Of a stretch of 44,123 nucleotides of DNA, positions 873 to 44,010 are shown piece after piece. A model generated the notes under the pieces. It saw only the letters and a program-made list of their open reading frames with translations. It was not told the origin of the DNA and did no database searches. Source of the DNA: Candidatus Neomarinimicrobiota bacterium (GTDB lineage Bacteria > Fidelibacterota > UBA2242 > B5-G15); NCBI GenBank assembly GCA_017656425.1, contig JACDNV010000017.1, forward strand, positions 1 to 44,123. Reading direction: 5' to 3'. Within the stretch, counting starts at the first letter, position 1; every line of letters begins with the position of its first letter. Both the position numbers and the translations under genes were made by a program.

Positions 873-912
873 TCCTCTTATTTATATCTATTTTATCAAC
901 AACATCTTCTTT
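873..912. repeat. 40-bp direct repeat, copy A (end of pectate lyase 1)
   Basis: This stretch matches 3890-3929 at 39 of 40 bases. On the minus strand it holds the last codons of a T9SS tail, the TAG stop and an AGAGGA ribosome-binding-site-like sequence. Here it closes the downstream pectate lyase gene; the AGAGGA is not followed by any gene I can see. Confidence 0.85.
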
Positions 913-2516
913 GATATTATATGACCAGGATATTCAAGCTTATAGACATAAATACCACTGCTTAGATTCTTCGCATCAAAATGAACTTCATGCTTCCCTG
1001 GTGATGCAACTCCATTAAACAGCTCAGCTACTTTATTTCCTCTTATATCATATATATCTAACTTAACATTAACCTTATATGGAACACTAAATTTAATCAT
1101 CGTGGATGAGTTGAATGGATTTGGATAATTTTGAGATAGGCTAAATCCATTCACAAAATTAGATTCAGTATAATCTATCGCATTTCCATTCAAATACTCA
1201 TCTTCACCTGCTAAATGACAAAGAAATACTTCAAGATTTGTATATCCTCCTGCTCCAATTTCATTTCTATCTAAAGGATCATTTGAATCAAGCCCATGCT
1301 CATCTTCCCAGTCATCTGCTATTCCGTCATGATCATTATCTGTATAAGGTGTCCCAGATTCCAACTCAGGCCATCCACCGACATCACTCGGTGAATCAAT
1401 AATGCCATTATTACCGTACTTCGCTATCCCTTTCTTAACATCATCTATGATATCTTCATCTACTTTATCTCTCTTTGGTATAGTACACCCTGCTTTATCA
1501 AGAACCAGTTCATATGCTTCCTCTGCTGTCTGCTGATTTATTGGCATTGCATCCCATGGAGCATCCAGCTTAATATAATTACTACCCTTAACTCCCTTCC
1601 AGTTATCAGCAGTAATATCATCATGTCCGTAAAAATAATTATCACTGACATACCAGCTACCTTTATCATCTAATGACCTTGCACTCGGTTCAGCAATGTA
1701 AATTGCTGTCGAAGCGGGCCCTGGTTTAAAATAATTTGCAATCATATTGATAGTGCTAAACGTATGTTCCGGATCATTCGGTTGTTTAGCTTCTGCACCA
1801 TAAATACTTTGATAACCCCAATTGTATAGTACATTGTTTCTAAAATCGTTATATCCACAACCAGAAGCCCATCGAGGATTTCGACTGTCATTATGTACTA
1901 TTAGATTATGATGCCAGGTCCCATAGTTGTTCCCCCATATACCTCCAAAGCGATGTGAATCTGAACCATCTTTAGGACATGCCTCTGAGATAATACACCA
2001 CTGCACGGTAGTTGAATCATTATGGTAAAGTGAAAAAACTTCATCAGTGCCCCAACTGACTGAAACATGATCAATAATTATATTCTTATGAGACCTTCCA
2101 GACAACGCATCTCTATCAGGATTGACTGAGGGATCATTTCTTACTCGTATATATCTTATAATCACATTATCTGCACCTATCGAAAGGCTACCCCTAATAG
2201 TTATTCCACCACCTGGTGCTGTTTGCCCAGCAATTGTAATATCATCATTACTTATTGTGAAATTGCCTTTTATTTCACCTGATACTTTGAATACTACAAT
2301 TCTTGGTCCTGAAGCACTTATAGCTGCTCCAAAACTGCCAGAACCTGAACTATTGAGGTTTGTTACCTCATATACCTTGCCCCCACGACCCCCTGTCGCA
2401 TATTTACCATATCCTTCAGCTGTAGGAAATGCCAGTTGGCGAGGTAAAAGAACACGGGTAGAAAACAAAATAAGAGTTGTGACTAATACAAACCTAATTA
2501 ATAAAGTCGACTTCAT
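888..2516 (-). CDS. Secreted pectate lyase, PL1 family, with T9SS C-terminal sorting domain
   Basis: The product is 542 aa. Residues 1-29 are a signal peptide (MKSTLLIRFVLVTTLIL). The mature protein starts AFPTAEGYGKYATGGRGG, the typical opening of Bacteroidota-type PL1 pectate lyases, and continues as a parallel beta-helix with the IIIDHVSVSWGTDE calcium-site region. PL1 enzymes cleave alpha-1,4-polygalacturonate by beta-elimination. An Asp-rich stretch near residues 390-415 (DNDHDGIADDWEDEHGLD) resembles a calcium-binding thrombospondin-3-like linker. The last ~80 residues (NYPNPFNSSTMIKF to SKKMLLIK) are a T9SS sorting domain, so the enzyme should be secreted and perhaps surface-attached. 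The start has an AGGAGG site upstream. An almost identical gene lies directly upstream. Family call is firm; exact substrate is inferred. Confidence 0.93.
   Translation of the reverse strand: MKSTLLIRFVLVTTLILFSTRVLLPRQLAFPTAEGYGKYATGGRGGKVYEVTNLNSSGSGSFGAAISASGPRIVVFKVSGEIKGNFTISNDDITIAGQTAPGGGITIRGSLSIGADNVIIRYIRVRNDPSVNPDRDALSGRSHKNIIIDHVSVSWGTDEVFSLYHNDSTTVQWCIISEACPKDGSDSHRFGGIWGNNYGTWHHNLIVHNDSRNPRWASGCGYNDFRNNVLYNWGYQSIYGAEAKQPNDPEHTFSTINMIANYFKPGPASTAIYIAEPSARSLDDKGSWYVSDNYFYGHDDITADNWKGVKGSNYIKLDAPWDAMPINQQTAEEAYELVLDKAGCTIPKRDKVDEDIIDDVKKGIAKYGNNGIIDSPSDVGGWPELESGTPYTDNDHDGIADDWEDEHGLDSNDPLDRNEIGAGGYTNLEVFLCHLAGEDEYLNGNAIDYTESNFVNGFSLSQNYPNPFNSSTMIKFSVPYKVNVKLDIYDIRGNKVAELFNGVASPGKHEVHFDAKNLSSGIYVYKLEYPGHIISKKMLLIK
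1192..2444. repeat. Long tandem duplication, copy 1 (~1.25 kb)
   Basis: This stretch appears identical to 2558-3810, offset by exactly 1366 bases; the translations agree in the coding frame and in an antisense frame. It covers the whole mature catalytic part of the pectate lyase but stops before the T9SS domain. Past 2445, in the signal-peptide codons, the copies differ at about eight positions in 75 bases. Confidence 0.9.
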
Positions 2517-2544
2517 ATGCGTTTCCTCCTATAAATATATATTA

Positions 2545-3882
2545 TTAATTACATCTTAAATACTCATCTTCACCTGCTAAATGACAAAGAAATACTTCAA
2601 GATTTGTATATCCTCCTGCTCCAATTTCATTTCTATCTAAAGGATCATTTGAATCAAGCCCATGCTCATCTTCCCAGTCATCTGCTATTCCGTCATGATC
2701 ATTATCTGTATAAGGTGTCCCAGATTCCAACTCAGGCCATCCACCGACATCACTCGGTGAATCAATAATGCCATTATTACCGTACTTCGCTATCCCTTTC
2801 TTAACATCATCTATGATATCTTCATCTACTTTATCTCTCTTTGGTATAGTACACCCTGCTTTATCAAGAACCAGTTCATATGCTTCCTCTGCTGTCTGCT
2901 GATTTATTGGCATTGCATCCCATGGAGCATCCAGCTTAATATAATTACTACCCTTAACTCCCTTCCAGTTATCAGCAGTAATATCATCATGTCCGTAAAA
3001 ATAATTATCACTGACATACCAGCTACCTTTATCATCTAATGACCTTGCACTCGGTTCAGCAATGTAAATTGCTGTCGAAGCGGGCCCTGGTTTAAAATAA
3101 TTTGCAATCATATTGATAGTGCTAAACGTATGTTCCGGATCATTCGGTTGTTTAGCTTCTGCACCATAAATACTTTGATAACCCCAATTGTATAGTACAT
3201 TGTTTCTAAAATCGTTATATCCACAACCAGAAGCCCATCGAGGATTTCGACTGTCATTATGTACTATTAGATTATGATGCCAGGTCCCATAGTTGTTCCC
3301 CCATATACCTCCAAAGCGATGTGAATCTGAACCATCTTTAGGACATGCCTCTGAGATAATACACCACTGCACGGTAGTTGAATCATTATGGTAAAGTGAA
3401 AAAACTTCATCAGTGCCCCAACTGACTGAAACATGATCAATAATTATATTCTTATGAGACCTTCCAGACAACGCATCTCTATCAGGATTGACTGAGGGAT
3501 CATTTCTTACTCGTATATATCTTATAATCACATTATCTGCACCTATCGAAAGGCTACCCCTAATAGTTATTCCACCACCTGGTGCTGTTTGCCCAGCAAT
3601 TGTAATATCATCATTACTTATTGTGAAATTGCCTTTTATTTCACCTGATACTTTGAATACTACAATTCTTGGTCCTGAAGCACTTATAGCTGCTCCAAAA
3701 CTGCCAGAACCTGAACTATTGAGGTTTGTTACCTCATATACCTTGCCCCCACGACCCCCTGTCGCATATTTACCATATCCTTCAGCTGTAGGAAATGCCA
3801 GTTGGCGAGGATAAAGAATGCAGGTAGAAAACAAAATAAGAGTTGTGACTAATACAAATCTTATCAATAAAGTCGACTTCAT
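2545..3882 (-). CDS. Secreted pectate lyase, PL1 family, tandem copy lacking the T9SS domain
   Basis: The product is 445 aa and matches the downstream pectate lyase residue for residue through the catalytic beta-helix and the Asp-rich linker. It ends EYLRCN-stop, exactly where the other copy runs on into its T9SS sorting domain. It keeps a signal peptide, so it should reach the periplasm but not be handled by T9SS. I chose the ATG at 3882 over the ATG at 3888 because the AGAGGA site is about 7 bases from the former and 2 from the latter. The signal-peptide codons differ from the other copy (FSTCILYP against FSTRVLLP). The spacer to the next gene is only 28 bases, so the pair is probably co-transcribed. 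It could be a young duplicate, a truncation product, or an assembly artefact. Confidence 0.9.
   Translation of the reverse strand: MKSTLLIRFVLVTTLILFSTCILYPRQLAFPTAEGYGKYATGGRGGKVYEVTNLNSSGSGSFGAAISASGPRIVVFKVSGEIKGNFTISNDDITIAGQTAPGGGITIRGSLSIGADNVIIRYIRVRNDPSVNPDRDALSGRSHKNIIIDHVSVSWGTDEVFSLYHNDSTTVQWCIISEACPKDGSDSHRFGGIWGNNYGTWHHNLIVHNDSRNPRWASGCGYNDFRNNVLYNWGYQSIYGAEAKQPNDPEHTFSTINMIANYFKPGPASTAIYIAEPSARSLDDKGSWYVSDNYFYGHDDITADNWKGVKGSNYIKLDAPWDAMPINQQTAEEAYELVLDKAGCTIPKRDKVDEDIIDDVKKGIAKYGNNGIIDSPSDVGGWPELESGTPYTDNDHDGIADDWEDEHGLDSNDPLDRNEIGAGGYTNLEVFLCHLAGEDEYLRCN
2558..3810. repeat. Long tandem duplication, copy 2 (~1.25 kb)
   Basis: Partner of 1192-2444. The unit length of 1366 bases includes the short spacer with its own AGGAGG site and ATG for the downstream copy. 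Confidence 0.9.
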
Positions 3883-3889
3883 ATACATT

Positions 3890-23495: not shown

Positions 23496-24269
23496 TTATA
23501 ATATTTTCCCTCTTCTTTCCATAGTTTCCTTTTCACTTATCGGAACCACTTTCTTCCTTTCTGTTTCATATACCGTCATATAGTTTAGACCATCAAAATA
23601 CTTACTTATTTCGGATAATTCTTCCTTGTCCAAAGGTTTCGCTTTTGATGGACGAAGTGGGGTGTTTATTTGTACCTCATCAGGATGAATTTTAGCTGCT
23701 ACCTTTGCAATTTCTTTTGCATGATTTTTATTCTCTTCTGTAAACATTATCTGAAGAGCAAGCTTCCCTTTATAATTTTTCTTAAAGCTAATAACACCTT
23801 CTATTATTTTTCTTATTTCAACTCCATCCATTGGCCTATTTATTTTCAAAAAAGTTTCCTGATCAACAGCATCGAGTTTAGCAACTACAAGATCAAATTC
23901 CGAAAGCTCTTTTTTTACATCGTCACTATTTATTAATGATGAATTTGTCAAAATTGCAATTTTTTCATTACGTATTTTTCTTATAACTCTTACAATTTCT
24001 AAAAGATTTTTGGCAAGGGTTGGTTCTCCCATTCCAGAAAAAGTAATATAATCAATCTCTATTTCTGGTACTCTTTTTATTTCCTCTATTACCTTTTCAG
24101 TTTCAACATAGACCTTTCTTTCATCTGTATAAAGCACTTTTTTACCTAACTGGCAATAAATACAGTTAAATGTACAGACTTTTATCTTTTGAGAAAGTGG
24201 GTCAATTCCCAATGAGCTACCCAATCTCCACGAAGGTACTGGACCATATACATATTTAAATTTTTTCAA
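23496..24269 (-). CDS. Radical SAM protein (COG0731 type)
   Basis: The product is 257 aa. The CxxxCxxC cluster motif is [12 protein letters not shown] (Cys 32, 36, 39), followed by [17 protein letters not shown], the GGE-like SAM-binding motif. It opens [18 protein letters not shown], typical of this group of short radical SAM proteins, which is related to the wyosine-type TYW1 family but lacks its flavodoxin domain. The start codon is TTG, overlapping the upstream Mrp stop as TTGA, so translation is coupled. Substrate unknown. A role in maturing or modifying a metal-cluster component is an inference from context. Confidence 0.85.
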
Positions 24270-25096
24270 ATTCTCTTCTCGAGTTTATCTATTATATTTC
24301 GAACGATATTAAAAAAAGCCTTACCCGTGCTGGAGTCTTTTCTTTCAAGCACATATGGTCTTCCTTTATCTTCATATTCTACTACTAGCGGATCAAAAAG
24401 AATATCCCCAAGAAAATCTACATGTAAATCTTTTGCGGCTTTTTCACCGCCCCCTTTACCAAACAGTGCGATATCATAGCCACACTTTGGACACTTAAAT
24501 CCACTCATATTTTCGACAATCCCTATAACAGGAGCATTTAATTTTTGAGAAAAAATAACACTCTTTCTTGAATCTAGAATTGCAACATCCTGAGGAGTTG
24601 TAACTATAACCGTACCTGTAAGATCTGGTAAAATCTGACAGATGCTTAAAGGTTCATCACCCGTCCCAGGAGGCGCATCAATAATAAGATAATCAAGCTC
24701 ACCCCAGTTTACGTCCCCAAGAAATTGTTTGATCAATGCAGTTTTCAAAGGCCCACGCCATATTATAGGTTGATCAGTATCTTGTGATAAAAGAGCAATA
24801 CTTACAACAACAAGATTCTCATTCATTTTAAAAGGTTCAATACTGTTTTCATTACCATATAGTGTTACCCCTTCGATCCCCAGCATTTTTGGTACATTTG
24901 GACCATGAATATCAATATCAAGTATTCCAGTTTTTTTACCTAGGCTTGACAAAGCTAATGCCATATTCACAGCTACGGATGTTTTTCCTACTCCCCCTTT
25001 TCCGCTCATTACAAGTATTTTAAACTTGATTCTGGACATTCTTTCTTTTATTCTTTTTGTCCTTTCTTCATCTTCTCTTGATATCGGAACTGGCAT
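24266..25096 (-). CDS. Mrp/NBP35-type iron-sulfur cluster carrier ATPase
   Basis: The product is 276 aa. The deviant Walker A motif is [34 protein letters not shown] is the Walker B/switch region; and [19 protein letters not shown] holds the CxxC that bridges a 4Fe-4S cluster between two subunits in this family. Mrp/NBP35 proteins deliver iron-sulfur clusters to target proteins with ATP hydrolysis. It is 16 bases after the MinD-ferredoxin pair. The combination of two ferredoxin-type MinD ATPases with Mrp is characteristic of ORP-type operons. Confidence 0.92.
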
Positions 25097-25112
25097 TTTG
25101 AACCTCTTTTTT

Positions 25113-25982
25113 TCAGTTTTTTAAAATATTTTTAACTCTTTCAAAAGCTCTGATAAATTCCTGTTGTATAACTTCACCTATTTCCAAAATTGGAGGAATA
25201 CCATTTACAATCGAGTCTACTATCTTAGCTGTATATGGAATCTTTGCAATTATTTCAACATTTCTTTTTTCACAAAATTCCTCGATCAATTTAGAATTTT
25301 CTAAATTTATATCATACTTATTTATCACAACGGTGGGTGTTATTCTAAAATAATCGGTCAGCTCGAGAACACGCTTCAGATCATGCAAACCTGACATGCT
25401 GGGTTCTGTTATGACTATTACAATATCTACTCCAGTTATTGATGCAATTACAGGACAACCAATACCGGGAGGACCATCAATCAAAATAAAATTTTTATTT
25501 TCATTCTTTGCATATATCATTGCTTCTTCTCTAACTCTGGTTACAAGTTTACCTGAATTTTCCTCTCCAGGATATAGCTCTGCATGTATTAACTTTCCGT
25601 ATTTAGTATCCGAAACATATAGTTCTCCTGCTTCTCTCGGTTGCGTTACCACGGCTTCAACAGGGCAAATTTTCTCACATATTCCACAATGTTCACAGGA
25701 AAAAGGATCAATAGTATAACTATTATCTATTGCATTATATCGACAGTATGTTATACACCTTCTGCACTGAATACATTCCTCTCTATTTATAGAATACTTC
25801 TTCCCACTTACAAACTTTTCTTTTTTTAATATTTTTGAACCAGTAATGAGATGCAGATTCGATGCATCCACATCACAATCTGCTATAACCTTGTTATTCA
25901 TTAAAACTGACAATGATGAGACAAAGGTGGTTTTTCCGGTTCCCCCTTTACCACTTATAGCCGTGATCTGTTTTATTCTCAT
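25113..25982 (-). CDS. MinD-type ATPase with inserted 2x[4Fe-4S] ferredoxin domain (second of pair)
   Basis: The product is 289 aa from ATG 25982. I prefer this start because it overlaps the upstream stop as ATGA and has a GGAG site. Walker A is [18 protein letters not shown]. The ferredoxin insertion has [11 protein letters not shown] (Cys 70, 73, 76, 80) and [12 protein letters not shown] (Cys 96, 99, 102, 106). [18 protein letters not shown] and [15 protein letters not shown] are the switch regions. This is COG1149. In Desulfovibrio two such proteins belong to the orange-protein complex; here they are likewise paired. They probably couple ATP hydrolysis to cluster or electron delivery. Confidence 0.92.
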
Positions 25983-26842
25983 TTCCGGTCTCCACACAAA
26001 ATTTTCTCAATATTTTTATGTAATAATTGATATTCTTCCTTTAAATTCTCAAAATGTTTAACATAAGGTATCCCTTGCGAATACAATCTGGCAAATTCTT
26101 CATTATAGGGGATTTTCATAAGCACAGGTATATTTTCTGCCTCACAGTATTTTTCCACTTCTTTATCACCAATATTGAATCTATTTATCACGACTCCAAA
26201 AGGTATCTTCATTTCTCTAATTGCTTTAACAGCTTTTATCAGATCGTGGAGGCCGAATGGTGTCGGTTCTGTAACGAGTAAAGAGAAATCACTACCCTTA
26301 ACAGATGCTAGGAAAGGGCAGGATACTCCAGGTGGAGAATCAATTATGACAATTTTCCTGCGATTTAAATATTTTTTCACACTATTAATAATAGTAGGTG
26401 TAGAAACCTCTCCAATATTCATTTTCCCCTGTATGAATTCGATATTACCACTATTACCGCTTTCGACTACTCCAACTATTTTATCCTTTTCTTTTATTGC
26501 TTTTTCCGGGCAAAAAAGCGTACAGGCTCCACAGTTATGACATAAATGGTCAAATATCATTACCTGCCCTTTTGAATTATCTGTTGGTGGTAATACAACA
26601 ATAGCATTAAACTCACATACCTCTTTGCATTTACCACAGTAAGTACATTTTGATTCTATAATTTCGGGAACAGGTAAACTAATATATATTTTAGTTTGAA
26701 TTCTGGGTTTTAAAAATATATGAGCATTGGGTTCTTCAACATCACAATCAAGAAATTGGACACTTTTAATTGATAGAGCGAAATTGACCGCAACCGTAGT
26801 TTTACCCGTTCCACCTTTACCACTTGCAACCGATATGATCAT
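25979..26842 (-). CDS. MinD-type ATPase with inserted 2x[4Fe-4S] ferredoxin domain (first of pair)
   Basis: The product is 287 aa. Walker A is [19 protein letters not shown]. The ferredoxin part has CTYCGKCKEVC (Cys 66, 69, 72, 76) and CHNCGACTLFC (Cys 101, 104, 107, 111). IIDSPPGVSCPFLASVKG and VTEPTPFGLHDLIKAV follow, as in its partner. The two are paralogues and probably work as a heterodimer. It is the first gene of the operon that continues to about 21.8 kb, and a perfect 7-1-7 Fur box lies 42 bases before its start. Confidence 0.92.
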   Translation of the reverse strand: MIISVASGKGGTGKTTVAVNFALSIKSVQFLDCDVEEPNAHIFLKPRIQTKIYISLPVPEIIESKCTYCGKCKEVCEFNAIVVLPPTDNSKGQVMIFDHLCHNCGACTLFCPEKAIKEKDKIVGVVESGNSGNIEFIQGKMNIGEVSTPTIINSVKKYLNRRKIVIIDSPPGVSCPFLASVKGSDFSLLVTEPTPFGLHDLIKAVKAIREMKIPFGVVINRFNIGDKEVEKYCEAENIPVLMKIPYNEEFARLYSQGIPYVKHFENLKEEYQLLHKNIEKILCGDRK

Positions 26843-26883
26843 TTCTATCCCATTTATTTAAGTCGATTTTTAAAAATCAATAT

Positions 26884-26898
26884 TGAGAATCATTCTCA
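26884..26898 (-). promoter_or_regulatory. Fur box before the MinD-ferredoxin/Mrp operon
   Basis: TGAGAAT-C-ATTCTCA is a perfect 7-1-7 inverted repeat of the Fur type. It lies between the end of a methyltransferase gene and the start at 26842. I could not choose a -35/-10 pair with confidence. The same structure occurs at 33682 and 34201. Confidence 0.85.
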
Positions 26899-26949
26899 TT
26901 TAAATTTAAGAAAGAAATCCCAAATAAAAAATCTTAAAAACGCCCTGAG

Positions 26950-27510
26950 TTACTTACACACGAAAAAGTTTAGAATCTGGCACTGATTATAGTAAGTGTC
27001 GTGCAAACATGCAGTATCTATGGTCTCTTTTAACGTAAAGCCGAACTTTTCTATCTCATCGATTATCTCTTTCAATGAGATGTTGGCTAATTCCATCAGG
27101 GGGTAATCATTCTTGTTATGCTTTGGATAAAGAGAAAATATCCCCCTGCTTTTTAGAACCCTTTTTACTTCTCTGTAAATTTTATCTCTTCTGTCAACAT
27201 AGTGAATCACATCGTAAACGAGAGCAAAATCCAGTGAGTCATCATTAATCGGCACTGTAGTGTCACTTTTAATGAGCTGTATGTTATCTGTTTTCATTTC
27301 TCTGATGAGAGTTGAAACAAACTTTAGCACCTCCGGGTTTTTGTCAAGGGCATACACTATCCCTTTATTGCCAACAACCTTTGATAAAGGAATTGTGTAA
27401 TGACCTTCTCCACATCCATAATCAAGCACTTGCATTCCCTCTCTGATACCAATTTTTTTCAAAAAATTTATTCCATCAAAGTTCATCCATTTATTGACGT
27501 CACCAGTCAT
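26950..27510 (-). CDS. Class I SAM-dependent methyltransferase
   Basis: The product is 186 aa. Motif I is QVLDYGCGEGHYTIPLSKVV, with an acidic residue in YALDKNPEVLKF and motif IV region LDFALVYDVIHYVDRRDKIY. The fold is clear; the substrate is not. It is the last gene of the run that starts with the SLAC1/TDT transporter and lies before the Fur box of the next operon. Residues near the end, TACLHDTYYNQCQILNFFVC, could include metal or thiol ligands. Confidence 0.82.
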   Translation of the reverse strand: MTGDVNKWMNFDGINFLKKIGIREGMQVLDYGCGEGHYTIPLSKVVGNKGIVYALDKNPEVLKFVSTLIREMKTDNIQLIKSDTTVPINDDSLDFALVYDVIHYVDRRDKIYREVKRVLKSRGIFSLYPKHNKNDYPLMELANISLKEIIDEIEKFGFTLKETIDTACLHDTYYNQCQILNFFVCK

Positions 27511-27537
27511 TCTAAACCCCTTGCCGTCTTTAGAAAG

Positions 27538-27753
27538 CTATTGCAATGATTCGTCTATTGTCCCATCTGGAAGCATGTTATCAGGGTGATATTCTCCTTT
27601 TTCTTCCATTTTATATCTAACGCAATCCGTAAAATTACCCATACAATATTAGTTTATCCATTTTTTATCAATTTTGCCCTGTTCGTAAAAATATCTCATA
27701 GGGCATACCCAATACCATTTACACACTTTTGACTCGTTCTCAAATTTTCTCAA
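27538..27753 (-). pseudogene. Small four-cysteine protein interrupted by an in-frame TAA
   Basis: A 72-codon frame from TTG 27753 (inside the end of groES, behind an AGGTGG-like site) encodes SKVCKWYWVCPMRYFYEQGK, then KKWIN, a TAA at 27649-27651, and goes on in the same frame as YCMGNFTDCVRYKMEEKGEY, ending HPDNMLPDGTIDESLQ. The protein character and the two Cys pairs (CKWYWVC and C-x6-C) continue across the stop with no frame change, so this is a single nonsense change (for example from AAA or GAA) or a base-call error. I recall small four-cysteine proteins of this kind in anaerobes and archaea, but the function is not known to me. Confidence 0.6.
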
Positions 27754-28024
27754 CTTCCACCACCTTTGCAACAATGTTTGTATATTCCACCAGTAGCAAT
27801 CTGCTTTTATCCTCGTGTCCTACCTCTATTGCTGGGTTATCTTTGAATATAACTTTATCCCCTACCGATATTTCTTTTGGGACATCAGGGGCTACAGCCT
27901 CAACATATCCCTCATTTTTGTCACTACCTGCAACTTCAGGTATTATCAAACCTGAATCGGTTTTTAATTCCTCCTCTTTGACTTTTACCAATACATGATT
28001 ATTTAATGGTTGAATCTTTTCCAT
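27740..28024 (-). CDS. groES: GroES-type co-chaperonin (orphan)
   Basis: The product is 94 aa, the normal GroES length. It has PLNNHVLVKVKEEELKTDSG, then LIIPE as the mobile-loop IVL-like contact, and VGDKVIFKDNPAIEV followed by LLLVEYTNIVAKV. GroES caps the GroEL folding chamber. No groEL is in the window, and the gene is placed 11 bases after a redox protein gene, which is unusual. Either it is a second GroES copy or the chaperonin genes are scattered in this genome. Confidence 0.85.
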   Translation of the reverse strand: MEKIQPLNNHVLVKVKEEELKTDSGLIIPEVAGSDKNEGYVEAVAPDVPKEISVGDKVIFKDNPAIEVGHEDKSRLLLVEYTNIVAKVVEVEKI

Positions 28025-28035
28025 ATCTAACCTCC

Positions 28036-28617
28036 TTATTTTTTTACTCCCAGTAATCTGTCTATTTCAGGCTTATTGAAGCCTATAACAAATTTCCCGT
28101 TTATATCGATTTGAGGTGTTCCCATCTGACCTGTCCTTTTGACAAGTTTGTCAATTTCACCAGGATTTTTCGACAGGTTAACTTCTTTAAAAGGTAGAGC
28201 CAGGCTTTTTAGATATTCTTTAGCTCTGACACACCAGGGACATCCGTCGGTTGTATAAACGACAATTCTTTTCGATTTCTTTTCAGCTTTTTTAGTGGGT
28301 TTTATTTTCTTTTCTTCAAAAGCTTGTATAAAGAATTCCTTATCTTGCAGACCGTAGATGATATTTTGTACCCTCCCTTTTTCAATAATTGCCACGGCAG
28401 GAATAGAATCAATATTGAAATGACGGTGGACATCTTTAACTTCCGATACATCGACGGTCAGAACTTCAATGCTCTTATTTTCGCTTTCCAGTTCTTTGAA
28501 AATATCGAGAACTCGTTTGCTTTTTTCTGAGTTTCTGGAGTAGAAAACAACAGGGTAGATCAGGTCATTGTTTTTTGTGACCTTTTCCAGGTGTTTGAAA
28601 TTCAGAACATTTACCAT
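28036..28617 (-). CDS. Thioredoxin-like/glutaredoxin fusion protein
   Basis: The product is 193 aa. The N-terminal ~110 residues have the thioredoxin fold pattern (YPVVFYSRNSEKSKRVLDIF; VDVSEVKDVHRHFNIDSIPA) with the cis-Pro, but the CxxC position reads RNSEKS, so this half cannot do dithiol chemistry. A Lys-rich linker (KKIKPTKKAEKKSKR) joins it to a glutaredoxin domain with YTTDGCPWCVRAKEYLKS and the cis-Pro loop MGTPQIDINGKFVIGF. The CPWC half is probably the active disulfide reductase. It belongs to the group with the OYE-type reductase and GroES and may receive electrons from a flavoprotein. Confidence 0.88.
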   Translation of the reverse strand: MVNVLNFKHLEKVTKNNDLIYPVVFYSRNSEKSKRVLDIFKELESENKSIEVLTVDVSEVKDVHRHFNIDSIPAVAIIEKGRVQNIIYGLQDKEFFIQAFEEKKIKPTKKAEKKSKRIVVYTTDGCPWCVRAKEYLKSLALPFKEVNLSKNPGEIDKLVKRTGQMGTPQIDINGKFVIGFNKPEIDRLLGVKK

Positions 28618-28724
28618 GTTGCAACCCTTTCATAAATCAAGCATTATTTGATTGTTTTGATTCATATTTGGTTACAAAATTACTATGGCATTGAACAAAT
28701 GCAACATACACCTGTATCCCTTGC

Positions 28725-30548
28725 TTACAATTTTATTGCGATATTGAAACCTTCATGAATGGCATCTATAATACAATGGACATTTTTAGCATCTCCTATA
28801 ACATAGGAAGGAACTCCTTCAAATTTAAAAGGAATATAAGGTTCATTTCCCAGAGCAAACACCAATTCGTCAAATTCAAATGTTTTGCAATTCCCCTCTT
28901 CCAGATACTCAACTATAAGTTTATGTCCTTCGACTTTTTCTATTTTGTGTTTTACAAGTATTCTAACTTTGTTTTCCTTTAGTTCTTGAAGCAGCACTTT
29001 TCGCGATAGAGTTTCCGTTCCCGGAGCTATATCATCTAACATTTCTATTATTGTAACGGAATTATCTTCGCTCAGGAAATGAGCCGTTTCACACCCAACC
29101 AGCCCTCCACCACAGACGATGACATTTTTGTTTTTCACTGTAACTTTTCTGTTCAAAATCTCGTCGTAGGTATGGATGTATTCAGATTCGATGCTAAATG
29201 GGATGTTCGGCCTTGATCCTGTGGCAATTATAACTGCATCAGGGTTAATCTTTGTTACTTCATCTTTTGAAGTGGCTTTTGGGTGAACTGTAATGTTTTT
29301 TGTGTCTTTTATACTGTTTTCAAAGAATTCTATGAGCCAGTTTATCTTATCCTTTCCAGGCGGGACGGCTGCCTCATGTAATTGTCCGCCAAATTTTTCA
29401 CAGAATATATGAACTTCGTGACCTCGAAGAGCACTCACTAATGCAGATTCCAATCCCGCAGGCCCACAGCCGATGATTGCAATCCGTTTTTTGACTTCTG
29501 CTTCTTTCACCTCAACTTCATTTCCAACATTTGGATTGACCCCACAGCAAATTGCCGTATCTTTGTCGTGCCGCGCTTTAATACACTCGCTACAGCCTAT
29601 GCACTTTCTTATGAGATTAACTTTGTTTTCTTTTACCTTCTTTAACCAATCGGGATCGGCGAGATAAGCCCTCCCGAGCACCACCATGTCAGCCTGATTC
29701 TCCAGTATATGTTCGGCAACCTCGGGTGAACGGATCACGCCAACAGCCGCTATGGGGACGGGTTTTGGGTAAATAGCTTCTGCTAAGTATGCTCGCCATC
29801 CTTCGGGAAAGGAAATGGGTTCTAGCCTATATTCTTTTGGACCTATTCCTATATCAGCTTGTATCATATCGTAACCAGCTTTCGCTAAAATATCCGCAAT
29901 TACGTTCCCTTCTTCAATAGTAATGCCCCCTTCTTCTGTATCTTTTACCGCTAATCGGATTGTAACAGGGAAGTCATCACCACAAAACTTTTTTATCTCC
30001 TTCAAAATTTCAACTGGAAATAAGGTCCTATTTCCCCACCTGTCTGTACGATGATTGGTTAAGGGTGATAAGAATTGATTTACCAGCAAGCCGTGAGCAC
30101 CCTGTATTTCTACCATATCGAAACCTGCCTTTTTTGCCAGCAATGCAGCCTTTGTGTAAATATTGATTAATTCAAGGATTTTTTTCTCTGATAGATCATC
30201 AACGCCGATTCCTTTTTCAATAAAGCCAGGATGAGTAAGTTCCACTGAAACCTTACTATCATATTCATGAATTGCTTTCGTAAAATCTTTCCAATCACTT
30301 AAAAATTCTTCCGAATCAAACCGAGGTGAATATGTTCCCTTCTTGCCATAAGGGTAATCTATTGTTACGTTTTCAACAATGGTAAGACCAATTTCCCCCT
30401 TTGCTCTTCGGACATAATGTTTAACAAACCTCTCAGTTAGTTTTCCATTCTGATCAGCAAAATTGGTGGAGATTGGGGGGAAAATAAGCCTGTTTCGCAA
30501 TTCCACTTTTCCAATTCTGATCGGCTTAAAGATTTTTTTGTATTTCAT
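28725..30548 (-). CDS. OYE-family NADH:flavin oxidoreductase (2,4-dienoyl-CoA reductase type)
   Basis: The product is 607 aa with an AGGAG site. Residues 1-330 form an FMN barrel: KIFKPIRIGKVELRNRLIF, and MVEIQGAHGLLVNQFLSPLT with the usual H-x-H/L-L substrate region. A 4Fe-4S site follows (RKCIGCSECIKARHDKDTAICC). The C-terminal half binds FAD (IAIIGCGPAGLESALV) and NAD(P)H (VIVCGGGLVGCETAHFLSE). This is the 2,4-dienoyl-CoA reductase/trimethylamine dehydrogenase layout; the natural substrate, an enone or other unsaturated compound, is unknown. It follows the TDT transporter gene after 75 bases. Confidence 0.9.
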   Translation of the reverse strand: MKYKKIFKPIRIGKVELRNRLIFPPISTNFADQNGKLTERFVKHYVRRAKGEIGLTIVENVTIDYPYGKKGTYSPRFDSEEFLSDWKDFTKAIHEYDSKVSVELTHPGFIEKGIGVDDLSEKKILELINIYTKAALLAKKAGFDMVEIQGAHGLLVNQFLSPLTNHRTDRWGNRTLFPVEILKEIKKFCGDDFPVTIRLAVKDTEEGGITIEEGNVIADILAKAGYDMIQADIGIGPKEYRLEPISFPEGWRAYLAEAIYPKPVPIAAVGVIRSPEVAEHILENQADMVVLGRAYLADPDWLKKVKENKVNLIRKCIGCSECIKARHDKDTAICCGVNPNVGNEVEVKEAEVKKRIAIIGCGPAGLESALVSALRGHEVHIFCEKFGGQLHEAAVPPGKDKINWLIEFFENSIKDTKNITVHPKATSKDEVTKINPDAVIIATGSRPNIPFSIESEYIHTYDEILNRKVTVKNKNVIVCGGGLVGCETAHFLSEDNSVTIIEMLDDIAPGTETLSRKVLLQELKENKVRILVKHKIEKVEGHKLIVEYLEEGNCKTFEFDELVFALGNEPYIPFKFEGVPSYVIGDAKNVHCIIDAIHEGFNIAIKL

Positions 30549-30623
30549 GGCAGTCTCCTGATGTTTGTAATGTTTCTGTATTGTTTGGTCCAGAAAAATC
30601 GGGAGCTTTTATCTCGCAGATTT

Positions 30624-31667
30624 TCATTTTTCTACGAACAATTCTCCACGATACGTTTTTATTGCGGTATTGATAAAAGTAATTAGCCACAGAGAGAACA
30701 ACAACCAGTATAGTCCAAAGCCTATATAGTCTACCAGAGCTATTTTAAAGATTTGAGATATGGAATGACTTGCGGCTACGTATGCTCCCAGAGGGAATGT
30801 GAAAGCCCACCAGGACATGGCGTAAGGTAGTTTTAATCTTCTTATGTAGTGAAGGGTCATAATAATTGCCATTAGAGTCCACCATATTCCAAATCCCCAG
30901 AATATGAATCCAAAGACAAAGAAAGGTTCTTTTACAGTGATAAATGCAGAGTTGTTTGTGAGGTTTATTAAAGCAACTATTCCCGCACCGATAGGCCCAA
31001 GGTTTATCCATATTGTTGGAGCGAGGGTGTTTGGTAATGGGCTATGAAGGATGAAGCGGTATATACAAACTGCAAGTAACCCGAGGTAAATGAAAAATCC
31101 CGCGCCCCATCCAAAATAGTTTATGAATATGACGAGTTCCTGCAACGCTCCTGAAAATTTTGGTATGACCAGGCTTCCTGCAATGGGAATCACAATAAGC
31201 CCGACAGGAGGGATGAACCATGCAGGATTAATATGGTCAATTTTAACGTGTTCGCCTCTAAACATAATGTATGGTGTCAATATCCCAAAGAATACAGTCA
31301 GCAAAGTACCTACAGACCAGAATGCTTTTCCAATAAACATATTGTTCCTGATCACAATGTAGTCTGCTGCGAGGACGAGCATGCCAATAGCGATTGTTGC
31401 GTAAAAGTTTGATACAACGGGATGTTCAATATCTGCTAATGCTTGTTTCCTAAAAAGTATCCACCTTAATGTCCAGGGAACTAACAGGGTAAAGAATAGG
31501 GTAACATTAAAATATAGTAAGATGTGGGAAAAGACTCTTAGAATAGGCAGATATCGGGAATAAAATAAACTGTTTACAGCCAGAATTCCCGTTCCCATTA
31601 TGCTGGCAAACCAGGCCGGGGAAAAATTTTTAATAATTTCGCATTTGCAGTTAATCCGTTCTAGCAT
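30624..31667 (-). CDS. SLAC1/TDT-family transporter (TehA/Mae1 type)
   Basis: The product is 347 aa with about ten membrane segments. It starts FSPAWFASIMGTGILAVNSL, the pattern of the TDT family (PAWFxxVMGTG), and continues with conserved Phe- and Pro-bearing helices. Family members carry dicarboxylates, sulfite, tellurite or chloride/nitrate as anions. A GGTGGAGG site precedes ATG. The neighbouring reductase suggests an organic anion, but that is inference. Confidence 0.88.
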   Translation of the reverse strand: MLERINCKCEIIKNFSPAWFASIMGTGILAVNSLFYSRYLPILRVFSHILLYFNVTLFFTLLVPWTLRWILFRKQALADIEHPVVSNFYATIAIGMLVLAADYIVIRNNMFIGKAFWSVGTLLTVFFGILTPYIMFRGEHVKIDHINPAWFIPPVGLIVIPIAGSLVIPKFSGALQELVIFINYFGWGAGFFIYLGLLAVCIYRFILHSPLPNTLAPTIWINLGPIGAGIVALINLTNNSAFITVKEPFFVFGFIFWGFGIWWTLMAIIMTLHYIRRLKLPYAMSWWAFTFPLGAYVAASHSISQIFKIALVDYIGFGLYWLLFSLWLITFINTAIKTYRGELFVEK

Positions 31668-31803
31668 ATTTCCTCCACCTTAATTTGACACATCAGATTG
31701 CTTTAATTGATTTAGCTTTCCCAGAAACATAACAAAATGTCCTCAGATTTAGACACCACAGTGTTGGTTATAAAAGGCTTGACTTAATCAGTGGAGGAGG
31801 GTG

Positions 31804-31908
31804 TTAAGTGCCTTTCCACCTACATTTACACTTGCACTTGTTACGTTTCCGGCAACATAAATTGCACAAACAATTTGATATATGTTCCTGAAGCAAGATT
31901 AAATTCAT
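31804..31908 (-). CDS. Putative 34-residue cysteine-rich peptide
   Basis: ATG 31908 has AGGG five bases upstream and opens a 34-codon frame with seven Cys in its C-terminal 22 residues: NCLCNLCCRKRNKCKCKC, i.e. C-x-C-x2-CC-x5-C-x-C-x-C. The Cys spacing recalls metallothionein-like or metal-clamping peptides. It lies in the ~330-bp gap between the ferredoxin gene and the TDT transporter. The rest of the gap (31668-31803 and 31909-31994) has no other gene. It may be chance: the last codons come from a repetitive AAG-TGT-AAA run, and another frame on the same strand is open over about 29 codons here. Confidence 0.35.
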   Translation of the reverse strand: MNLILLQEHISNCLCNLCCRKRNKCKCKCRWKGT

Positions 31909-31994
31909 TTTAACCCTGATGTAAGTACTTAAATTGTAGTTTCGTTCATGATTGCATACTCAAATAAATTCAGGGAGTTTAAATTGCAATGTCT

Positions 31995-32468
31995 TTATTC
32001 AATTATTATGGCATTCCGGGGGCAAGCAGATACACAGTTGCCACAACCTGTACACAAATCTTGATTAATCTTTGCAACATCATTCACAGATATTGCATTT
32101 TCAGGACAGGCAGGGATACATACACCACATCCGACACAATATTGAGTTATGACCTCCGCTTTCCCAATTTCCTCACTCTCTCTTTTATTTTTATTTTCAG
32201 TTCTCACCTCATTTAAAAGTTCCTCCAGCTCCCTTTTTCTCTCTCTTAAATATTGTAATTCTTCTGCTTTACTGTATTTTTCAGGACGGTTTCTATCACT
32301 ACTTTGTTCAATATAATCTTCGGGATTTGGTCTATTAAAATTCCAGATACCTCTGCCCAGTCTTGATCCCTGTCCTAATCCTCTACCAAGCCCTCTTCCC
32401 CTACCACGCCCTTTTCCAAATCCTCTACCTCGACCATGCAATGGTCCTTTTCCATCTCCAAACGGCAT
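31995..32468 (-). CDS. 2x[4Fe-4S] ferredoxin with Gly/Arg-rich N-terminus
   Basis: The product is 157 aa. It starts MPFGDGKGPLHGRGRGFGKG and continues Gly/Arg-rich for ~45 residues (the DUF5320-type PxGDxxGPxG start), has a charged helix (KAEELQYLRERKRELEELL), and ends with a bacterial ferredoxin: CVGCGVCIPACPENAI and CTGCGNCVSACPRNAIII. The ligands for two 4Fe-4S clusters are complete. It is the last gene of the Fur-box operon with two NifX/ORP-like proteins and may supply electrons or clusters to them. Confidence 0.9.
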   Translation of the reverse strand: MPFGDGKGPLHGRGRGFGKGRGRGRGLGRGLGQGSRLGRGIWNFNRPNPEDYIEQSSDRNRPEKYSKAEELQYLRERKRELEELLNEVRTENKNKRESEEIGKAEVITQYCVGCGVCIPACPENAISVNDVAKINQDLCTGCGNCVSACPRNAIIIE

Positions 32469-32504
32469 GATTAACCTCCATCTGCCAAATTTTTACAATC
32501 AACT

Positions 32505-32837
32505 TTAAGAAAAATCATCAAGTTTATTTTCAATTAGTTTCTCTATATTATCTTTCACTGTTCCATCAACGGCCTTATAAACCTTAATACCACTACCAGA
32601 TAATATACGACCAGCGTTCGGTCCCACGCTTTTTGCTATAACAGCATCAGTTTTTTCCTGAATAACCAGTTGCGTAACCTGTACTCCCGCTCCAGATTGT
32701 AAATCTTTAAATCCGTTTTCTATTACATCAATATTACCATTTTCAGTGTCGAAAAATATAAAATAATTGCATCTGGCAAAAACCTCCGACAATTTCGAAT
32801 CGAGGGCATTTCCATCGCTGGGTATACATACTTTCAT
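32505..32837 (-). CDS. NifX/ORP-like metal-cluster binding protein (1)
   Basis: The product is 110 aa, a single Nitro_FeMo-Co domain: MKVCIPSDGNALDSKLSEVF at the N-terminus, FARCNYFIFFDTEN and a Gly-rich IAKSVGPNAGRILSGSGIK segment. Members bind iron-molybdenum or molybdenum-copper clusters as carriers. The position usually FGRC/HFGR in ORP-type proteins is FARC here. It has a GGGAG site and lies 18 bases after the other NifX-like gene. Confidence 0.9.
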   Translation of the reverse strand: MKVCIPSDGNALDSKLSEVFARCNYFIFFDTENGNIDVIENGFKDLQSGAGVQVTQLVIQEKTDAVIAKSVGPNAGRILSGSGIKVYKAVDGTVKDNIEKLIENKLDDFS

Positions 32838-32855
32838 AATAACTCCCTATTTTTA

Positions 32856-33212
32856 TCAAACCCCACAATTCTCTTCATCATGTGATTTACTACAAAGATT
32901 TTCACTACCCTTTAAGCTCCCATTCACAAATCGCTCAATTATATCTTTTATATCCCCATTTATGCCAGAAATAACATCTATACCGAAAGTTTTAAAATTT
33001 TCAATAGCCCTTTGGCCAATACCACCACAAATAACACATGTTACTCCCATATCTTTCAAATAACCTGGTAAAAAGCCTGGTGAATGTCCTGGATTATCTA
33101 TAATGTTTGTATTTTTAATCTTCCCCTCTTCAATATCCACAATTGTATATTGAGAGCATCTTCCAAAATGTAATGCTACTTTCCCATCATCCGTTGAAAT
33201 TGCAACTTTCAT
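32856..33212 (-). CDS. NifX/ORP-like metal-cluster binding protein (2)
   Basis: The product is 118 aa from ATG 33212 (GGGAGG site; the GTG/ATG further out is within this site). It starts MKVAISTDDGKVALHFGRCS, continues with DMGVTCVICGGIGQRAIENF and IDVISGINGDIKDII, matching the orange-protein/NifX group. The tail adds C-x6-7-C type cysteines (ENLCSKSHDEENCGV). ORP of Desulfovibrio holds a mixed Mo-Cu-S cluster; the cluster type here is unknown. A terminator-like hairpin separates it from the first gene of the operon. Confidence 0.9.
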   Translation of the reverse strand: MKVAISTDDGKVALHFGRCSQYTIVDIEEGKIKNTNIIDNPGHSPGFLPGYLKDMGVTCVICGGIGQRAIENFKTFGIDVISGINGDIKDIIERFVNGSLKGSENLCSKSHDEENCGV

Positions 33213-33232
33213 CTTACCTCCCATGTAAATTT

Positions 33233-33268
33233 AAAAAAAGGGGGGAGGGGGAAATCCCTCCTCTTTTT
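33233..33268 (-). terminator. Terminator-like hairpin inside the operon (possible attenuator)
   Basis: On the minus strand GGAGGG (33261-33256) pairs with CCCTCC (33249-33244) across a 6-base loop, followed by CCCC and seven T. It lies directly behind the DUF5320 stop and 21 bases before the next gene. It could lower expression of the genes that follow, or end one transcript. Confidence 0.65.
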
Positions 33269-33648
33269 TACTCCTTCTTGGACTGGGACTCTTTTTCTAA
33301 TGTTTCGATTCTCTTACTAATTTCCTCTAGGTTCCTTTTTAAAACCTCTGCCTGATCTTGCAAATACGCCATTTCTTCCTTGGGTGTTATTTCACCGGGA
33401 TATGGATAAACCCAGCCTCCAAAGGCAGGTAAACCATACCATGCTCTTACCCCTCCTGGCAATCCTGTTGCCCAGAACCAGTGTCTCCAACCTCTACCTC
33501 TACCAAACCAGCCTCTGCCCCAGCCAAGCCTTCCAATCCCGGGTACAGGGTTCAGATATCCGGGAACAGGATATCCAGCGCAATAACCGGCAGCTCTACC
33601 TGTCATTGGTCCCAGTCCAAGTGGTCCAGTACGATCTCCTAACGGCAT
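33268..33648 (-). CDS. DUF5320 protein with coiled-coil tail
   Basis: The product is 126 aa from ATG 33648, which has AGGAGG 7 bases upstream; the GTG just before it is less likely. It begins MPLGDRTGPLGLGPMTGRAA, the mark of DUF5320, then a Gly/Trp/Arg-rich middle (RGRGWRHWFWATGLPGG) and a coiled-coil end (YLQDQAEVLKRNLEEISKRI). DUF5320 genes travel with NifX/ORP-like genes; the function is unknown. It is the first gene behind the Fur-box promoter at 33678-33706. Confidence 0.88.
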   Translation of the reverse strand: MPLGDRTGPLGLGPMTGRAAGYCAGYPVPGYLNPVPGIGRLGWGRGWFGRGRGWRHWFWATGLPGGVRAWYGLPAFGGWVYPYPGEITPKEEMAYLQDQAEVLKRNLEEISKRIETLEKESQSKKE

Positions 33649-33677
33649 CACTTATCCTCCTCTCTTATTTCAAATAA

Positions 33678-41072: not shown

Positions 41073-41657
41073 TTATTTTAATTTAACAGCTTCAATTAAA
41101 AAGAGCCTATATGTATCAATTAGATTTAAAATCTGGAAATTCTGTGCACTAAGTTCCTCTCTTAAAATCTCTTTATCAGGCAATAAATCATCCTCCACCG
41201 GCGCACCTATTTCCATATGAATTTTATTTGTCTGTTCTCTTCCCTCAGGATGTATGATAAATAATCTACCTCTTCCCTTTAATACCCTATAATATTCAGA
41301 AAAAGCCTGCCGCCTGTTTTTAATATGTGGCACAACACAGTAGTTAACTACTACATCAATAGATTTGCTTTTAAACGGTAAAGACTCTGCAAAGGAATTT
41401 ATAACGTTAGAGCCGCTGTTTTTGATTTTTGATATTTTTAACATTTCCTTTGATATATCTATACCTACAATATTTTCAGCATATTTTCTCAATATTTTAA
41501 ATAGAAATCCATTGCCACATCCAACATCGAGAACCCAATATACTCTTTTTAGATTCAATAAATTGAAAATCTCAATAGCTCTTTTAAATCCATCCCTTTG
41601 ATTTCTAAAACTAACTGCTATATTATCAAAATAATCAATCAACTCTTTATAATACAT
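41073..41657 (-). CDS. Class I SAM-dependent methyltransferase of the nikR operon
   Basis: The product is 194 aa. Motif I is YWVLDVGCGNGFLFKILRK, followed by VGIDISKEMLKISK, FAESLPFKSKSIDVVVN and YRVLKGRGRLFIIHPEGR. It begins 12 bases after the TonB receptor gene with GGAG very close to ATG, so it is the third gene of the nikR operon. The link with nickel uptake suggests a role in making or modifying a nickel-binding small molecule, but this is inference. Confidence 0.87.
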   Translation of the reverse strand: MYYKELIDYFDNIAVSFRNQRDGFKRAIEIFNLLNLKRVYWVLDVGCGNGFLFKILRKYAENIVGIDISKEMLKISKIKNSGSNVINSFAESLPFKSKSIDVVVNYCVVPHIKNRRQAFSEYYRVLKGRGRLFIIHPEGREQTNKIHMEIGAPVEDDLLPDKEILREELSAQNFQILNLIDTYRLFLIEAVKLK

Positions 41658-41669
41658 ACTCCAATATAT

Positions 41670-43517
41670 TTATATAGAATATTTTAAACCGAAAGTAAAA
41701 TTAATTCCAGGCAATGGGTATCCATACATCATCTCATACTTTTTATCAAGCAAATTATTAACCTTTAAATTCAATATAACAGACCTAAATGGTTTAAAGT
41801 TTACACCTGCACTAATTAATAAAATTGGATCCAATTTCACATACGATGGTGGTCCATATGCATAGGGATTTTTATAACTATAAAGACCACTTATATATTG
41901 TGCATTAATCATCCCGCTTATTTTTTTGGATACCTTATAATCAAATCCACATATAATTTTTAATTCAGGACTACCAACGACATTATTAGAATATTTAGCT
42001 TTATATAATCCAATATTCAAAGCTCCCATATTTAAGTGATATTTTAGTGAAAACTCAGCTCCCTTACTTGAAAAACTTGCAATATTCACATTCTTAAAAT
42101 TTACAGTCTGAATCATATTATCAACATCTATATTAAAAAATGAAACGGTTCCAGATATAGATTTCCACCAGAAATCAGCAGAAAACTCCAGATTTTCCGA
42201 ATATTCTGGTTTTAGTCCCTTATTTGCGGGTCTAAACAAATACAATTCACTTATTGTTGGATTCCTGTATCCTTTTGAGTAATAAGCTTTTATATTTAAG
42301 TATCTATTTACACTATATATAGCACCAGCCGATGGTAGTACCAACCCCTTCTCTACATCACCATATACAAATCTTACACCTCCTTCGAGTACAAGCTTTT
42401 TCAACAACCTACCATGGATAATCCCTATCATACTATGTTCACTAATACTATAACTATTCCATGATCCGCGAAATACATCTCCACCATAATTTCTATAATC
42501 ATAACCCAAGATTAGATGATTGGAATGGTTAAAGTTATAACTTTCGGTAAGCATCAGTCCATAATTATAATCTTTTGATTTCCAGCCATCAAAAATCTTA
42601 TGATCACCATAGTTATAATGCATCTTAATTTCACTTGTAAGCTTCCCAAAATCATATTCACCTGTGATATCAAAACCACCTCTTTTTAAATCATACCAAT
42701 CTGTATCACTTGGAGCAGTTACCTGACGAGGATCATACAGATAAATATCGCTTATGTAAACATTGGAATAAATTTTGGCATTCTTTGCCCTGTTATAATG
42801 TGCTTCTAAGTTCAAAAAATTAGATTCATAAGAATCTTTGCCGGTACCTTCGAAGGTCCTGTAGCCTTCAGAGCGCCTTGTGCCCATAGAGACTGAATAA
42901 CCCAACCCATTTTTCTCAAAGGTATGGCTTAAAGCATAGTTTATTGTATTAAAGCTTCCGTAAGTAATTGGTATTGATAAATGGATACCTTCTGGATACT
43001 CATGCTTTAGTGCAACATTAATAGCGCCAGCAAGGGCATTTGATCCATACAATAATGAAGCAGGACCTTTGATAACCTCAATACTTTTCGCATTAGTCAA
43101 AAAATATACATCATGAATTGGATGTCCGAAGATCCCCATTATATCAGGTCTGCCATCGATTAATATAAGAGACCTTGTTGTTGGGAATCCACTAATCCCT
43201 CTTATAGAAATCATACCAGCAGAACCTCTACTTACTCCATACCCTATATTAGACCTGGAAGTTACGAATAAACCAGGGAATGAACTATTAAGTTCCTCAT
43301 ACAATGGCATACTGTTTTTGAACTCAATTTCATTTATTTTCTTTATATCAATTGAAATAGGTACTTCCCATTTATGATATTTCACTCTAGACGCAGTTAC
43401 CACAACTTCGGGTAAGGGATACACCTTAAGAGTATCTCTTTTTATAACCTCCTCAGAAACTAAATTACTCACAGCAATTACAAATATTAAAATTACTATC
43501 AAACTCCTATTTTTCAT
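41670..43517 (-). CDS. TonB-dependent outer-membrane receptor, probable nickel uptake
   Basis: The product is 615 aa from ATG 43517 (GGGGAGG site; the GTG before it is less likely). A signal peptide (residues 1-21) is followed by LPEVVVTASRV as TonB-box region, a plug domain (GMISIRGISGFPTTRSLILI; KSIEVIKGPASLLYGSNALA) and a barrel of alternating strands to INFTFGLKYSI. It sits between nikR and a methyltransferase with 12-base spacers. The known NikR-regulated TonB receptor FrpB4 of Helicobacter carries nickel, so nickel or a nickel chelate is the likely substrate here. No exbB, exbD or tonB is in the window. Confidence 0.9.
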   Translation of the reverse strand: MKNRSLIVILIFVIAVSNLVSEEVIKRDTLKVYPLPEVVVTASRVKYHKWEVPISIDIKKINEIEFKNSMPLYEELNSSFPGLFVTSRSNIGYGVSRGSAGMISIRGISGFPTTRSLILIDGRPDIMGIFGHPIHDVYFLTNAKSIEVIKGPASLLYGSNALAGAINVALKHEYPEGIHLSIPITYGSFNTINYALSHTFEKNGLGYSVSMGTRRSEGYRTFEGTGKDSYESNFLNLEAHYNRAKNAKIYSNVYISDIYLYDPRQVTAPSDTDWYDLKRGGFDITGEYDFGKLTSEIKMHYNYGDHKIFDGWKSKDYNYGLMLTESYNFNHSNHLILGYDYRNYGGDVFRGSWNSYSISEHSMIGIIHGRLLKKLVLEGGVRFVYGDVEKGLVLPSAGAIYSVNRYLNIKAYYSKGYRNPTISELYLFRPANKGLKPEYSENLEFSADFWWKSISGTVSFFNIDVDNMIQTVNFKNVNIASFSSKGAEFSLKYHLNMGALNIGLYKAKYSNNVVGSPELKIICGFDYKVSKKISGMINAQYISGLYSYKNPYAYGPPSYVKLDPILLISAGVNFKPFRSVILNLKVNNLLDKKYEMMYGYPLPGINFTFGLKYSI

Positions 43518-43532
43518 CACGACCTCCCCTAT

Positions 43533-43955
43533 TTAAACTCCTGGTAGCATTTTACCTGTTGAGGTAAATGTTAATTTTCCATGCTTTACACCTCTCGAAC
43601 CGATAATTCGATTCGCTATATCTGAAATCGTAGAATATCTTCCCTTAAGTATAATAACTTCTAAACAATTATCATGATCAAGATGTACATGTAAGTTAGA
43701 GTGTATGTACTTAAAATTATCATGTTGAAGATCAATTAATCTATCACTTATCTCTCTCACATGATGGTCATAAACTATTGTAAGAGTTCCTACTACTTCC
43801 ATATCCTGATCAATCTCTTGTTTTACCAGGAATTCTCTTATTAAGTCCCGTATTGCCTCGGATCTATTCGTGTATCCTTTTCCCTGTATTTCCTTATCAA
43901 ATTTTTCAAGTAAATCTTTTGGTAATGAAACCCCAAAACGAATCAACTCACTCAC
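43533..43955 (-). CDS. nikR: NikR nickel-responsive transcriptional regulator
   Basis: The product is 140 aa from GTG 43955, with GGAGG close upstream, which gives the usual NikR start (V/M)SELIRFGVSLPKDLLEKF. A ribbon-helix-helix domain follows (GYTNRSEAIRDLIREFLV), then an ACT-like domain. The nickel ligands fit E. coli NikR: HSNLHVHLDHDNC has His-x-His-x5-Cys (H87, H89, C95), and a His lies 11 residues before the first (H76). Nickel-bound NikR represses nickel uptake genes. It is the first gene of an operon with a TonB receptor, and its own promoter carries GTGTTAC repeats. Confidence 0.94.
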   Translation of the reverse strand: MSELIRFGVSLPKDLLEKFDKEIQGKGYTNRSEAIRDLIREFLVKQEIDQDMEVVGTLTIVYDHHVREISDRLIDLQHDNFKYIHSNLHVHLDHDNCLEVIILKGRYSTISDIANRIIGSRGVKHGKLTFTSTGKMLPGV

Positions 43956-43964
43956 AAAGCCTCC

Positions 43965-44010
43965 GTAACACATTTCTAAAAAATGTAACACCATTTTTAC
44001 ATACTGTCAA
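43965..44010 (-). promoter_or_regulatory. nikR promoter with GTGTTAC repeats (candidate NikR operator)
   Basis: On the minus strand TTGACA (44010-44005), a 17-base spacer and TACATT (43987-43982) make a good promoter. GTGTTAC occurs at 43991-43985 and 43971-43965, separated by 13 bases. GTGTTAC is, as I recall, the half-site of NikR operators in several bacteria, but there it is paired with inverted GTAACAC; here the two copies are direct repeats. The upstream copy touches the -10, so binding should repress. Confidence 0.65.

Follow-up and report, generated by a model that had tools for sequence, protein, structure and literature searches.

At the end of the window, the whole 44,123-nucleotide stretch of DNA analysed here, a gene for a NikR-type regulator is followed by genes for a TonB-dependent receptor (TBDT) and a class I SAM-dependent methyltransferase (MT). 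This arrangement raises the question of whether the three genes serve nickel uptake and, if so, what the methyltransferase contributes. The window is one entire contig (C17) of a 2.8-Mb, 99.7% complete genome (G000) of a marine and sediment class of Ca. Neomarinimicrobiota, hereafter the class. We compared it with samples of 23 genomes from the class and 245 genomes from the phylum.

Organization of the nikR operon

The three genes are carried by the minus strand between positions 41073 and 43955 in the order nikR - TBDT - MT. They are separated by 15 bp (nikR/TBDT) and 12 bp (TBDT/MT), which bears out the tight spacing claimed in the preliminary description. The first gene, nikR (43533-43955, minus strand), encodes a protein of 140 amino acids with a ribbon-helix-helix and a NikR_C domain. 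The start of its open reading frame at 43994 falls between the -35 and -10 boxes of the putative promoter, and the predicted nikR start should therefore move to the GTG at 43955, which is directly preceded by GGAGG (43964-43960). The receptor gene (41670-43517, minus strand) most likely starts at the ATG at 43517, preceded by a GGGGAGG ribosome-binding site, and encodes 615 amino acids comprising a signal peptide, a TonB box, a plug and a beta-barrel. The last gene (41073-41657, minus strand) encodes the class I SAM-dependent methyltransferase, of 194 amino acids with a DVGCGNG motif. Upstream of nikR we found a sigma-70-like promoter (43982-44010, minus strand; TTGACA at 44010-44005, a 17-bp spacer and TACATT at 43987-43982) that matches 10 of 12 consensus positions and has a TG ahead of the -10 box, a quality of match that is common by chance in this region.

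At the other end of the window (888-3888) two adjacent genes with near-identical N-termini (LAFPTAEGYGKYATGGRGGKVYEVTNL) apparently arose by recent duplication.

NikR and its predicted operator

The regulator scores 109 bits against PF08753 (cut-off 22) and 197 bits against NF003381 (cut-off 105). Alignment with Pyrococcus horikoshii NikR (2bj1, E 5.5e-42) shows that the metal ligands H78, H89, H91 and C97 are all present, as the preliminary description had stated, and they are kept in every NikR of the class. The regions upstream of nikR in the class contain paired half-sites 13 bp apart, GTGTTAC-N13-GTGTTAC or GTARCAC-N13-GTGYTAC, plus close variants. The pattern GT...AC-N13-GTG..AC fits 12 of the 14 class loci, against 0.0004 expected per locus when the sequence is re-sampled with its dinucleotide transitions preserved. 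In the window the predicted operator (43965-43991, minus strand) reads GTGTTAC-N13-GTGTTAC, and its overlap with the -10 box would suit repression.

Matches to the exact pattern occur in 11 of the 23 whole class genomes, in every case solely upstream of nikR, and the window's site is the single one in the 2.8-Mb genome. A whole-genome pattern search thus revealed no further target carrying the operator in G000, and, judged by this pattern, the NikR regulon appears to be the operon alone. Similar sites also precede nikR in phylum members having nikMQO-like genes. The NikR box of delta-proteobacteria is built from the half-sites GTGTTAC/GTAACAC with 13-bp spacing, its reversed form included (PMC545781), and so shares both half-sites and spacing with the class operator. 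The delta-proteobacterial sites are however inverted or reversed repeats found mostly before nikMQO, whereas in the window the half-sites are directly repeated and stand ahead of nikR-TBDT-MT.

Conservation of the three genes in the class and the phylum

NikR was found in 14 of the 23 class genomes. The methyltransferase was also found in 14, one of these copies being a contig-end fragment, the only one seen outside a nikR-TBDT locus. A receptor gene adjoins nikR in all 14 nikR-bearing genomes, and in 13 of them, belonging to several genera, the methyltransferase gene directly follows the receptor gene on the same strand. In the remaining genome, G016, nikR and the receptor gene are present and the methyltransferase was not seen, an assembly gap starting about 290 bp past the receptor gene. 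Because the order recurs in 13 genomes whose methyltransferases and receptors are 33-54% identical to the window's, the arrangement is far beyond chance. Pairwise distances of NikR, receptor and methyltransferase are correlated (r 0.65-0.82), which is what joint inheritance of the genes would produce. Together, operator and linkage strongly indicate, at the level of sequence, that NikR controls the receptor gene.

Across the phylum NikR was present in 24 of 245 genomes, and the methyltransferase (E <= 1e-25) was confined to the class. Outside the class, 7 of 10 nikR loci lie beside cbiM/nikM-like, cbiQ-like and ABC genes, as judged by inspection and confirmed with Pfam in one case, and one further genome, G056, has nikR beside a receptor gene. 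A search of the contig collection for named methyltransferase relatives, run with strict patterns of limited reach, returned only class loci already known. We found no paper describing the nikR-TBDT-MT operon among the open-licence papers searched.

The methyltransferase

The methyltransferase belongs to PF08241 (Methyltransf_11, 85 bits); against NF045667 (DVU_1556 family methyltransferase) it scores 77 bits, below the curated 155, and it is thus not assigned to that family. Its AlphaFold2 model is a confident class I fold of Rossmann type (pLDDT 88.6), and a Foldseek search with this model retrieved many small-molecule and other class I methyltransferases with no preference. The family keeps a motif NYC..PH ... 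IIHPEG....N..H, in which H-P-x-G....N..H is retained, and its conserved residues are C107, H111, H136, N144 and H147. A similar motif is present in methyltransferases of Parabacteroides distasonis and Chloroflexota encoded in other contexts, and the motif therefore marks a wider group.

Co-regulation and constant linkage point to a possible carrier-modifying role, and we tentatively propose that the enzyme acts on a small molecule carrying nickel. Whereas the preliminary claim of a nickel operon stands, its suggestion that the methyltransferase makes or modifies the nickel chelate is the weak part: it is possible but unproven, given the generic fold, the nikR-TBDT loci of P. distasonis, G056 and G016 at which no methyltransferase is found, and the fact that no metallophore-synthesis gene was seen near the operon. 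A credible alternative, which we also hold only tentatively, is that the receptor takes up nickel in free form or already chelated in the environment, for instance as nickel-amino acid complexes, and that the methyltransferase does something separate when nickel is short, for example by methylating a metabolite that accumulates when nickel enzymes idle. The generic fold and the loci lacking the enzyme also fit this explanation, the latter indicating that such receptors do not as a rule require it; so do relatives with a similar motif, H..S....N.HH, in unrelated contexts, such as the one adjoining ispE in P. distasonis. On the other hand, the methyltransferase gene is the sole other gene kept with nikR-TBDT on the same strand in those 13 genomes, which speaks against this alternative.

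Relatives of the methyltransferase on plasmid records are found in unrelated contexts. One of them, on the Chloroflexota ZRK35 plasmid (L162), is close to a cluster similar to that at window positions 24266-33651, which encodes Mrp-type ATPases and NifX/NifB-like small proteins. In a Subdoligranulum record (L164) a methyltransferase related to that of P. distasonis has a hypB-like gene at a distance of about 4 kb.

The receptor groups with other nikR-linked receptors

Domains PF07715 and PF00593 were both detected above cut-offs in the receptor, and inspection revealed a signal peptide and a TonB-box-like stretch around DTLKVYPLPEVVVTA; the plug carries the motif GRPDIMGIFGHP. We compared the receptor with six from E. 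coli whose cargo is known, the source genome's own receptors and nikR-linked relatives. Outside the class, the receptors of P. distasonis (235 bits) and G056 (201 bits) are closest to it, both encoded directly after nikR. Together with the class receptors these two make up a single clade (support 100/99) that excludes BtuB, CirA and FepA; the position of long branches elsewhere in the tree is unsure. In this tree with the six E. coli receptors, the window's receptor did not cluster with vitamin or siderophore receptors, in line with the preliminary assignment to nickel. The nikR-linked clade shares a GH motif in a plug loop (H133) and a GxHxIxD motif in the barrel (H307, D311), of which H133 and H307 are conserved residues in the 616-residue numbering of the alignment. 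H133, H307 and D311 are possible metal ligands, to be regarded as candidates; as the predicted model has a fair barrel and a poor plug (pLDDT 65.6), we did not read ligand geometry from it.

NikR-regulated receptors could carry cobalt or another complex, and we considered whether the operon might serve not nickel but cobalt, a corrinoid or some other metal complex. BtuB is indeed the best relative of solved structure, and the best family is TIGR01779 (TonB-B12), with 108 bits (cut-off 600). Yet BtuB lies far outside the clade, scoring 51 bits against the window's receptor compared with 201-235 for the nikR-linked relatives; G000 encodes no FecCD/BtuC permease, and the controlling NikR has all its nickel ligands. 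We thus consider a cargo other than nickel improbable.

The narrower reading as a vitamin B12 receptor was rejected on the TIGR01779 score together with that of NF007926 (79 of 836 bits) and the grouping away from E. coli BtuB. NF049944 (selenoprotein PUIUD receptors), matched with 65 of 850 bits, is a weak lead.

Nickel demand and the inner-membrane step

The source genome encodes an energy-converting [NiFe] hydrogenase, in a cluster that includes Mrp-type genes and shows both CxxC motifs, and another NiFe hydrogenase accompanied by hyp genes. Large-subunit CxxC motifs were also seen in G010, G012, G019 and G022. In these four genomes and in G016 the nikR operon lies directly downstream of the energy-converting [NiFe]-hydrogenase cluster or of its maturation-protease end. 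The hydrogenase family PF00374 is also present in some class genomes without nikR, which indicates that the link between hydrogenase and nikR is local, not strict. Mrp/Mbh-like [NiFe] hydrogenase clusters were noted at L077 (G000:C12:34000-50000), L043, L045, L049, L050 and L079, and several genomes of the class encode, between the hydrogenase cluster and the nikR operon, a histidine kinase together with a hydrogenase maturation protease.

Energization of the receptor would require a TonB/ExbBD complex, whose presence in G000 we assume from its 25 plug-domain proteins. For the inner membrane, CbiM/NikM was found in none of the 23 class genomes, NicO in two and FecCD in four, neither of the last two in G000. 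Since no dedicated inner-membrane nickel transporter of these kinds was found in G000, the nickel route is incomplete. Opp/Dpp-type ABC systems move nickel complexes in other bacteria. One complete system of this type is encoded on contig C13 of G000, where we found no link to NikR, and the family is likewise present in class genomes that lack nikR; it is a candidate only. In G056 (L122) the nikR-TBDT pair is followed by a short open reading frame with a weak match, below cut-off, to an ECF S-component (PF12822), a possible inner-membrane partner.

Proposed function of the operon

We consider it probable that the operon encodes an importer, repressed by NikR and driven by TonB, whose substrate is nickel or a complex of nickel. 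The nickel link asserted in the preliminary description gains from four lines of evidence: a NikR-family regulator with intact ligands, a NikR-type operator at the nikR promoter only, receptor relatives that are nikR-linked elsewhere too, and [NiFe]-hydrogenase genes directly beside the operon in several relatives. Repression by nickel, energization by TonB and the identity of the substrate are what we infer from them. When cytoplasmic nickel is sufficient, Ni-NikR would bind the operator over the -10 box and keep nikR, receptor and methyltransferase genes off; when nickel falls, all three proteins would be made. The receptor would then take up nickel, probably as a small complex, powered by TonB, and the imported nickel would supply the cell's [NiFe] hydrogenases. 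The methyltransferase, made only under nickel shortage, would most likely act on the nickel-carrying small molecule, either making the ligand transport-competent or converting the complex once it has entered the cell.

In its most far-reaching form this proposal describes a nickelophore system: a single SAM methyltransferase, repressed by NikR along with the receptor, would make or remodel the carrier of nickel, in a lineage that has a receptor in place of NikMNQO at its NikR locus; we regard this form as rather doubtful. It is unlikely that the methyltransferase, acting alone on a common metabolite, yields a nickel chelator that is secreted and then retaken by the receptor: the enzyme's co-regulation and position agree with this, and its five conserved residues could form a metal- or imidazole-binding pocket, but no exporter or further synthesis gene is encoded nearby and H111 is common in the wider methyltransferase family.

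Comparison with known systems

In Helicobacter pylori (FrpB4, FecA3) and H. mustelae (NikH), NikR represses TonB-dependent receptors for nickel (PMC3856676), and by description, not by sequence, these resemble the window's unit. In the available part of that account no linked methyltransferase is described, unlike in the class operon, and the inner-membrane step is assigned to NixA or FecDE/CeuE, whereas G000 has neither a NicO nor a FecCD protein. In Caldithrix abyssi the nikR-regulated loci Cabys_1316-1319 and 2622-2627, predicted to serve nickel (PMC5317091), likewise combine nikR, a TonB-dependent receptor and a shared NikR-like upstream motif; they include nikMNQO with no mention of a methyltransferase, while the class has no CbiM/NikM. 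P. distasonis (L144, NZ_OY725748.1; WP_005857797 / WP_121956810), a gut occurrence in Bacteroidota, has a receptor gene directly after nikR as in the window, and this receptor, at 31% identity, is the closest found outside the phylum. Its pair differs in lacking a methyltransferase gene and in that the NikR-type site, GTAACAC-N14-GTGCCAC, precedes the receptor gene and not nikR and has a spacing of 14 bp.

The combination of a NikR sensor with a TonB-dependent receptor is thus a known kind of pairing, and the part of the methyltransferase in it is new. According to the Helicobacter account (PMC3856676), it is still an open question in what form nickel crosses TonB receptors. In a lineage without CbiM/NikM, whose NikR regulon is apparently the operon alone, one receptor, one enzyme, their own NikR and a single genomic operator make the question of the nickel carrier testable, and the substrate or product of the methyltransferase would point to that carrier.
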